Shown piece after piece: positions 7,726-46,637 of a DNA stretch of 46,637 nt; position 1 is the first letter of the stretch; every line of letters begins with the position of its first letter. The DNA comes from Deltaproteobacteria bacterium (GTDB taxonomy: Bacteria > Desulfobacterota > GWC2-55-46). Under the pieces are notes generated by a model that saw only the letters and a list, made by a program, of their open reading frames with translations, was not told the origin of the DNA and searched no databases. The position numbers and the translations under genes were made by a program. The DNA lies in contig JACRCE010000102.1 in assembly GCA_016213015.1 (NCBI GenBank), forward strand, positions 1 to 46,637, in the 5' to 3' direction.

Positions 7726-8169
7726 TTACTCGACGCCTGCCATTACGATCTCGCCTTGAGCGACTATTGCCTTGTCAACCTCGGCCTTTACCGCGAACTC
7801 GGCCAGCCCGGAAAAGCCGTGCGACAACTCCGCGGTAAGGTGCATGGTCTCGCCCGGTTGAACCGGCCTCTTGAACCTCATGTCCTTAACCCGTGCTATG
7901 TAGGCAACCCCCCCATTCCCCCCCTCGCTAAGGGGGGGAATGGGGGGGTTGCCTGCGTGGTTCATCACAAGGCCCGCAAGCTGGGCCAAAGCCTCTATAA
8001 TGAGCACGCCGGGCATTATCGGAGTCCCGGGAAAATGCCCCTGAAAGAACCCCTCGTTTACAGTGAGGTTCTTTATCGCGACGCCCTTGAACTCGTTCAT
8101 CTCAAGCACCCTGTCGATAAATCTGAAAGGGTAGGAGTGCGGCAGTCCTTTGAGCGGGTCATGCGTCAT
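7726..8169 (-). CDS. fabZ: FabZ-like 3-hydroxyacyl-ACP dehydratase with repeat-encoded insertion
   Basis: A 147-residue hotdog-fold dehydratase. LPHSYPFRFIDRVLE holds the catalytic His, and NEGFFQGHFPGTPIMPGV and EALAQ hold the second catalytic acid and the helix. It removes water from 3-hydroxyacyl-ACP to give trans-2-enoyl chains. The loop after EALAQLAGLVMNHA contains 17 residues translated entirely from a perfect inverted repeat (7903-7953). By my recollection of the E. coli and Bacillus proteins, this makes the loop about 7-8 residues longer than usual. The frame is kept and the rest of the family sequence resumes at YIARVKDMRFKRP, so the enzyme is probably active. Its ATG overlaps the ACP stop (ATGA). 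Confidence 0.9.
   Translation of the reverse strand: MTHDPLKGLPHSYPFRFIDRVLEMNEFKGVAIKNLTVNEGFFQGHFPGTPIMPGVLIIEALAQLAGLVMNHAGNPPIPPLSEGGNGGVAYIARVKDMRFKRPVQPGETMHLTAELSHGFSGLAEFAVKAEVDKAIVAQGEIVMAGVE
7903..7953. repeat. perfect 23-bp inverted repeat inside fabZ
   Basis: Left arm 7903-7925 and right arm 7931-7953 are exact reverse complements around a 5-nt loop. The arms are runs of seven C (or G) separated by A-T-T, flanked by GGCAA/TTGCC. The element is 51 bp, exactly 17 codons, so it inserts without breaking the frame. Related G/C-run palindromes occur at 23842-23872 and 24150-24187. Confidence 0.93.
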
Positions 8170-22640: not shown

Positions 22641-23839
22641 TATTTTTGAATGACCAATGCCGCGTTTGCGCCGCCAAAGCCGAAGGAGTTTGAAAGAACC
22701 CTCTTGATATTATGCTTTTGCCCCGGCCTGTCAACGATATTGAGCGGACATTCGGGGTCCGGGGTTGAATAATTTATATTCGACGGCAGTATGGACTCGT
22801 TCATGGCAACTATCGAGATGACGGCCTCTATTGCCCCGGCCCCGCCGAGTATATGCCCGACCGCCGATTTTATGGAGCTTACCGGAACCGTCTTTGCGTG
22901 GTCTTTGAACACCTCGCGTATCGCCTTTGCCTCCATTGCGTCATTGAAGGAGGTGGCCGTGCCGTGGGCGTTTATGTAGTCGACATCGGACGGGGCGCAG
23001 GCGGCGTCTTCAAGCGCCCTTTTAATGGCAAGGCGCGCCCCGCCTGCCGTGGGGTCGGGCCGGGTTATGTGATATGCGTCCGAAGACTCTCCGTATCCGG
23101 CTATCTCGGCCAGTATCGTTGTCCCTCTGCGTTTGGCCGCGCCCATCTCTTCGAGTATCAGGATTGCCGCGCCCTCGCCAAGGACAAGCCCGTCGCGCCT
23201 CAAGTCGAATGGGCGGCAAAGGGTGGTGGTTATCGCCTGAAGCGAATTGAATCCGGCAACGGTGAACTCGCACATGGTGTCGTAGCCGCCCGCAAGCGCG
23301 ATGTCGGATATGCCGCCGCGTATCTCGTTCAATGCGAATCCGATGGCGTTCGTGCCCGAGGCGCAGGCATTGGAGATGGAAAACACGTTGCTCGAGGCCC
23401 CGTTGTCCTCGGCAACGCGCACGCCCTGCGAAAAGGCTATGTAATCAAAGAGGCTTGAAGCCCTGCCCTCCCTGCCCAGCACGATCTCCTTATGGAAGGC
23501 GGAGCCGGACAACATGCCGCCGAGCGTCGTACCGAGCACGACGGGCGTGTCCGCCGGCAGTTTATCGGCAAACCCTGCCTCGCGTATCGCCTCGCGAGCC
23601 ACGGTCAAAAGGAGCTTGGCGGCCCTGTCGTAACGCTTGGGACTGTTCGGCGACAGAGCCTTGTCGAATTCAAAACCCCGTATTTCGGCGCCGGTCGCGC
23701 CCCTGTAACCGCTTGCGTCGAACGAGGTCAACCGGCCGATTGCGCTTGCCCCAGCGATTATGCCGGAGAGGTTCTCGGCTTTGCCTGAACCGAGCGCCGT
23801 TATGATACCCATGCCCGTAACGACCACGCGGCGCGTCAT
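22622..23839 (-). CDS. fabF: beta-ketoacyl-ACP synthase II-type, catalytically intact (first of locus)
   Basis: A 405-residue ketosynthase with the catalytic triad C159 (SNACASGTNA), H292 (NAHGTAT) and H329 (KSAVGHILGGAG) and the gate sequence DGLVLGEGAA. It has family-typical length. It differs enough from the ketosynthase at 19090-20244 to suggest a different step, for example priming versus elongation. Its ATG overlaps the stop of the small membrane protein gene, and its stop lies within a palindromic repeat. It is likely the active partner of the Ser-type ketosynthase encoded next. Confidence 0.92.
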   Translation of the reverse strand: MTRRVVVTGMGIITALGSGKAENLSGIIAGASAIGRLTSFDASGYRGATGAEIRGFEFDKALSPNSPKRYDRAAKLLLTVAREAIREAGFADKLPADTPVVLGTTLGGMLSGSAFHKEIVLGREGRASSLFDYIAFSQGVRVAEDNGASSNVFSISNACASGTNAIGFALNEIRGGISDIALAGGYDTMCEFTVAGFNSLQAITTTLCRPFDLRRDGLVLGEGAAILILEEMGAAKRRGTTILAEIAGYGESSDAYHITRPDPTAGGARLAIKRALEDAACAPSDVDYINAHGTATSFNDAMEAKAIREVFKDHAKTVPVSSIKSAVGHILGGAGAIEAVISIVAMNESILPSNINYSTPDPECPLNIVDRPGQKHNIKRVLSNSFGFGGANAALVIQKYRDREP

Positions 23840-24141
23840 TCAACCCCCCTCAATCCCCCCTTGTTAAGGGGGGAAGCGCTTTTTGTTCTTTTCCTTAATA
23901 AGGAGGGACGCTGGGAGGTCAACGGTTTTTCGCGTTCCTCCCCGTGAAACAGGGCGTCGGCCTTGAAGGGAAGTTTATAAAACCATGCGATCAGAAAGAG
24001 CATGACGCAAAGCATCGCCATTGCGCTCCATGCCCAATAAAACACGACGGCAACGAGAGAGGCGATAAACGCGATGAGGCAAAACGCGGTTGCAAACAAT
24101 GATTTCAGGAAGTAACGGTCAAGCATATCGGAAATGGACAT
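23836..24141 (-). CDS. small two-helix membrane protein with repeat-derived tail
   Basis: A 101-residue protein. Two hydrophobic helices (about residues 14-33 and 38-53) are joined by a short turn, followed by a basic cytoplasmic tail. The last residues (SPLNKGGLRGVE) are translated from a G/C-run repeat at 23842-23872. That pattern is common where such repeats run into genes, so the original C-terminus was probably different. The gene sits between the deacetylase and the first ketosynthase and overlaps the latter by 4 bp. I recognise no family; a membrane anchor for the pathway is a guess. Confidence 0.7.
   Translation of the reverse strand: MSISDMLDRYFLKSLFATAFCLIAFIASLVAVVFYWAWSAMAMLCVMLFLIAWFYKLPFKADALFHGEEREKPLTSQRPSLLRKRTKSASPLNKGGLRGVE
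23842..23872. repeat. G/C-run palindrome at the membrane protein/ketosynthase junction
   Basis: Runs of six C and six G around TTGTTAA (stem CCCCCCTT-GTT-AAGGGGGG) with an upstream AACCCCCCTCAAT arm. It encodes the C-terminus of the small membrane protein and ends three bases before the ketosynthase ATG, so it could mask that gene's translation start in the mRNA. Confidence 0.75.
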
Positions 24142-24149
24142 TCCTTTTC

Positions 24150-24187
24150 TCCTCCCCCCTTGCGGGGGAGGGCAGGGTGGGGGGTCA
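24150..24187. repeat. G/C-run palindrome after the deacetylase gene
   Basis: CTCCTCCCCCC-TTG-CGGGGGAG plus GGCAGGGTGGGG forms a short strong hairpin. It overlaps the stop-codon region of the deacetylase gene and fills the gap before the small membrane protein gene. It is the same type of element as 7903-7953 and 23842-23872. Confidence 0.7.
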
Positions 24188-46489: not shown

Positions 46490-46637
46490 AAGGAAACTCT
46501 GATTAATTCTTATTTTGTCATTGCGAGCCCAGCACCACTTTGGATTACGAAAGCATGTTGTTTGATAAATTTTCTCGTGCAACAAAGTGGTGCTGGGCGC
46601 GGCAATCTCTAAGTTGTTGATTTCCTTGAAGACGAGA
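46490..46637. repeat. MITE-like repeat, copy E (cut by window edge)
   Basis: Starts AAGGAAACTCTGATTAATTC and carries the CCCAGCACCACTTTG ... CAAAGTGGTGCTGGG inner inverted repeat and the GATTTCCTTGAAGACGAGA block, at which the window stops. It is copy B read on the other strand. Its last 40 bp are the reverse complement of positions 42-81 in copy A. Confidence 0.88.

Follow-up and report, generated by a model that had tools for sequence, protein, structure and literature searches.

A perfect palindrome within a fabZ-type dehydratase gene, probably a copy of a dispersed C-run/G-run hairpin element

The stretch of DNA analysed here (the window) comprises 46,637 nucleotides of contig JACRCE010000102.1 from a Deltaproteobacteria bacterium (assembly GCA_016213015.1), and carries a dehydratase gene that is interrupted, in frame, by a long palindrome. 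The features at this locus are the following:

7726..8169, (-) strand: fabZ-type 3-hydroxyacyl-ACP dehydratase gene (PF07977, NF000582), 147 aa, with the palindrome inside
7902..7925, no strand: left arm of the palindrome, AGGCAACCCCCCCATTCCCCCCCT, 24 nt, 100% complementary to the right arm
7926..7930, no strand: loop of the palindrome, CGCTA, 5 nt
7931..7954, no strand: right arm of the palindrome, 24 nt
7902..7952, (-) strand: codons of the palindrome (about 17), peptide GNPPIPPLSEGGNGGVA, corresponding to G73-A89, a predicted disordered surface loop

The ORF at 7726-8169 matched the FabA-like Pfam family PF07977 (E 3.9e-25) and exceeded the cutoff of the NCBIfam FabZ model NF000582. Its product retains the GHF motif and E58 that are conserved in FabZ, and the best fold matches of its structural model were solved FabZ structures. 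The gene is accompanied by genes for an acyl carrier protein, a FabG-like reductase and a phosphopantetheinyl transferase-like protein, with two ketosynthase-like genes farther along, a neighbourhood that we take to resemble an aryl-polyene-type cluster. Since contig C23 of the same genome encodes a second, ordinary FabZ that lacks the insert (its closest counterparts in the set of named loci retrieved come from Nitrospira and further Nitrospirae, at 59-62%), the palindrome-bearing FabZ is probably not the housekeeping enzyme.

An inverted-repeat search of the window recovered the arms at 7902-7925 and 7931-7954 as 24 nt each with 100% complementarity, separated by the 5-nt loop CGCTA. No other inverted repeat of the window came close, the runner-up reaching 22 nt at 82%. 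When 20 replicas of the window were generated with an order-1 Markov model, their longest perfect arm was only 8-10 nt, versus the 24 nt of the real sequence. The preliminary description had reported a perfect palindrome of 51 bp; its exact complementarity and loop length stood, while the arms proved to be one base pair longer on each side. As also described there, the palindrome supplies 17 codons without a stop, and these encode G73-A89 of an intact FabZ, with NPPIPPLSEGGNGGVAYIAR as the peptide of the palindrome region in the product. The very stable mRNA hairpin that had been anticipated there, with the suggestion that it might slow translation, was borne out by prediction as far as its stability is concerned, with the gene-strand RNA yielding a minimum free energy of -59.9 kcal/mol (z = -8.6) that none of 200 shuffles matched.

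Alignment with homologues confirmed that the palindrome extends a loop between conserved FabZ blocks. The encoded stretch was absent from all six orthologues examined (L038-L043; about 50-59% identical pairwise by tblastn, 54-63% in the multiple alignment) and from ordinary FabZs, and the loop that leads from the central helix into the following strand was 10-11 residues longer than in these orthologues. In the structural model (mean pLDDT 83.5; residue numbering beginning at T2) the fold remained that of FabZ. The insert lay in a loop linking helix 53-71 to strand 87-98 and was modelled as disordered, its pLDDT dropping below 50 over residues 77-84. The boundaries of the insert are to be read as approximate, because the genomes compared included neither another member of the genus nor a closely related fabZ whose site is empty, and the best match among the contigs of the named close relatives was 46%, providing no empty site at the nucleotide level. 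In the fabZ sequence itself no target duplication was evident. The fabZ loops of seven homologues, examined for a native hairpin that might have served as the landing site, contained no conserved one. The right arm runs into the conserved codons of A89-Y90 (GCC TAC), indicating that the palindrome either includes some host sequence or took the place of host codons.

Searching the genome for the 51-mer, as had been proposed, revealed no exact repeat, but did reveal one sibling on contig C29 (C29:58642-58695) with 89% identity over the element. In the orientation of the gene, the fabZ copy reads GGCAACCCCCCCATTCCCCCCCTTAGCGAGGGGGGGAATGGGGGGGTTGCC and the C29 sibling reads GGCTACCTCCCCCATTCCCCCCCTTAGTAAGGGGGGGAATGGGGGAGGTAGCC. 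In the arms, the two copies are distinguished by a single substitution and a one-base indel, both of which are paired in the opposite arm, and the remaining differences are confined to the loop. The C29 sibling caps a native stem of a mosaic repeat that measures about 290 bp and lies between genes. The genome yielded 84 BLAST matches to this intergenic repeat, and contig C108 starts with a related copy of it. Several other copies (e.g., on C74, C37, C8, C112, C40 and C32) carry the plain tip GCAAAAGCGC instead, and on this within-genome evidence the C/G-run part would have been added to, or have replaced, a hairpin tip.

The intergenic repeat itself (L195:1440-1735 on C29, and about 40 other sites in the genome) consists of separable modules with several stem-loops, and Rfam gave no match in the window, in L195 or in L191. 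On C23 (L220), a different inverted-repeat element, CCCAGCRCCACTTYG ... CRAAGTGGYGCTGGG, occupies the TTCG tetraloop of an intergenic-repeat stem, and an arm pair similar to it was observed near the right end of the window (46524-46601). Hairpin tips may thus be landing sites for several elements.

Pattern searches, on which our genome-wide counts of C/G-run hairpins are based, placed the fabZ palindrome in a much larger set. C6-N3-33-G6 gave 24 forward matches in this genome, some of them overlapping, and none in the reversed control. The pattern CCCCCTTN2-5AAGGGGG was present in 43 of 59 relatives, where control matches were almost nil, and in 125 of 297 genomes of the phylum, with a maximum of 225 per genome; since some genomes match the control instead (79 in G325), lone low counts do not prove that the family is present. 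The commoner form in the relatives has three blocks (e.g., AATCCCCCTCAGTCCCCCTTTAGAAAAGGGGGAAGT) and measures about 36 nt, unlike the fabZ copy, which has a symmetric four-block form that was seen in three copies. Judging from these sequences, the feature common to the wider family is the plan of a C-run/G-run hairpin rather than the whole sequence. We found no description of the family in the literature searched, which comprised open-licence papers only. Most sampled elements lay outside long ORFs, and gene-breaking insertions would escape detection, so we do not claim genes as preferred targets. As a separate observation, G000 carries a tandem array (C46:64-474) with a period of about 66 bp that includes CCCCCCGCACGGGGG.

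The pattern search and its surroundings added two further features of the window:

23844..23873, no strand: second C/G-run hairpin of the window, three-block form
24154..24184, no strand: third G/C-run repeat, CCCCCCTTGCGGGGGAGGGCAGGGTGGGGGG type, with similar copies on C16, C79 and C115

The first of these encodes the C-terminus (...SASPLNKGGLRGVE) of the small ORF 23836-24141 (-), whose stop region is derived from the C/G-run element and whose stop overlaps the ATG of a FabF-like ketosynthase. The CCCCCCTTGCGGGGGAGGGCAGGGTGGGGGG-type repeat nearby is, from its copies, another dispersed family.

Similar elements also interrupt other conserved genes. In-frame C/G-run elements were found in a P-type ATPase, an NFACT protein and a TonB-like protein of this genome, in RecG, SelB and a class IV aminotransferase of the relative G010, and, within a long ORF, in a DNA methylase of another genome. 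For five of the six genes of this genome and G010, the stretch was absent from relatives and typically measured about 27 nt. Specifically, exactly nine residues of the ATPase were missing in all seven relatives, six of which have a native PP (CCN CCN) at the site of the element, and 8-9 residues of NFACT were likewise missing in seven of seven. In G010, the third RecG element added nine residues relative to the genus-mate G018, the SelB units were absent from that same genus-mate, and the aminotransferase gained about 7-8 residues relative to its relatives. Two candidate statements were dropped: the TonB-like protein as a proven insertion, its region being too variable in the relatives, and the equation of every spanning ORF with a coding insertion, as the N-terminal C7 case and short ORFs may be spurious. 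Two side observations concern coding repeats: the units in SelB of G010 (L256) form a tandem array whose period is 42 nt (14 codons), and a YfiH/laccase-type protein (PF02578) on C62 (L197; ORF 1210-2082, (-) strand) contains an in-frame repeat of another, related GGGAGGGCAGGGTGGGG-type family that encodes the peptide LPHPALPRERGGGKG.

Taken together, we consider it likely (probability roughly 0.8) that the fabZ palindrome is a copy of a dispersed non-autonomous hairpin element that inserted in frame into a surface loop of a secondary FabZ, where its survival reflects tolerance of the extra residues. The mobility of the C/G-run element is inferred from its distribution. As a small non-autonomous hairpin it would spread as selfish DNA, and its stop-poor, C/G-rich sequence, together with length changes in multiples of three, would make it survivable within genes. 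Integration probably occurs at existing hairpins or C-runs through microhomology, with some host bases being replaced. Net gains in host genes were smaller than the elements themselves, and because the net gain in fabZ (about 30-33 nt) falls short of the 53-nt palindrome, host bases would have been replaced or shared. Since all arm differences between the sibling copies are paired, intrastrand template switching, or conversion of one arm by the other, might maintain the identity of the arms.

The strongest competing explanation involves no mobile element: a replication fork that switched templates would have perfected, and extended in place, a quasi-palindrome already present in the loop codons of fabZ. 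In its favour, the right outer arm GTTGCCT extends over the conserved host codons for A89-Y90, so that the matching left outer arm AGGCAAC may have arisen by inverted copying of host sequence. Perfect arms with paired differences between siblings also fit template switching, which has been proposed to explain the perfect palindromes in mitochondrial coding sequence of nematomorphs (PMC6649704). However, the C29 copy shares the inner core and most of the loop, and the outer-arm sequences GGCAACC/GGTTGCC resemble the stem GGCCAACC/GGTTAGCC of the intergenic repeat, neither of which a purely local origin predicts. We regard an origin in place as unlikely.

It is considerably less probable still that the hairpin was selected as an RNA element of the fabZ operon, such as an attenuator, a terminator or a translational pause site. 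The predicted RNA is indeed very stable, and a similar hairpin on C45 is followed by a T-run in terminator-like fashion, but the fabZ hairpin lies in the middle of the gene, lacks a T-run and is missing from the orthologues, while similar elements occur in genes of unrelated function. An assembly or sequencing artefact, such as a hairpin-induced chimera or miscounted homopolymer runs, seems the least credible of all, for although palindromes can break assembly and contig C108 starts at such a repeat, the 53 nt are well within the usual length of a read, the gene can be translated straight through them, a different contig carries an independent sibling, and elements of this kind are numerous in other genomes.

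Beyond the reading of the fabZ palindrome as a dispersed hairpin element, a broader proposal can be put forward only tentatively, and we think it somewhat more apt to fail than to hold: that a phylum-wide non-autonomous hairpin inserts at hairpins or C-runs, adds about nine codons, has template-switched arms and represents a second independent origin of protein-coding palindromes, possibly one that is transposase-free. A Y1 transposase (PF01797) had no match in this genome, which is 98.7% complete, and matched in 5 of 14 control genomes. The many related genomes offer natural replicates for how selfish DNA adds protein loops, for arm identity and for movement without a transposase. For annotators, peptides of the PPLxKGGxGG type may be translated repeat DNA.

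Among known systems, REP elements with their RAYT (Y1) transposases are likewise small, dispersed and palindromic, but they are mostly extragenic, and here the GTAG tag is absent from the fabZ copy and the cognate transposase was not found. Prokaryotic MITEs are usually longer and have terminal inverted repeats and target duplications. Those compared here (ERIC, BOX and Coxiella QMITE1) resemble the element in being non-autonomous and in their ability to fuse to reading frames (PMC10969869). Nematomorph mitochondrial coding sequences contain perfect inverted repeats whose arms, as here, are apparently kept identical (PMC6649704), but those arms reach up to 142 bp and the repeats are not described as a family dispersed over genes and intergenic regions.

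Rickettsia and Wolbachia provide the best-known cases of palindromes inserted in frame; their palindromic elements (RPEs) measure 100-150 bp and lie in some cases within ORFs with the frame preserved (PMC3767692). The resemblance to Rickettsia elements noted in the preliminary description holds in part. Both are dispersed palindromes, found in intergenic DNA and in frame in unrelated conserved genes, and apparently tolerated (PMC3767692, PMC10969869); in our case the family is spread across coding and non-coding DNA of one genome, and the in-frame insertions relative to relatives concern fabZ, the ATPase, NFACT, RecG, SelB and the aminotransferase. The units differ in being about 36-53 nt rather than 100-150 bp, in their C-/G-run composition and in their uncultured host lineage. 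Because of its length, and with RPEs compared by description, we do not file the element as an RPE, and its C-run/G-run composition, which sets it apart from the described families, makes homology to them unlikely. A 2024 review noted the unusually high frequency that RPEs reach and considered a similar route of protein evolution conceivable elsewhere in prokaryotes (PMC10969869); here, an apparently unrelated element acts likewise in several conserved genes of an uncultured lineage.
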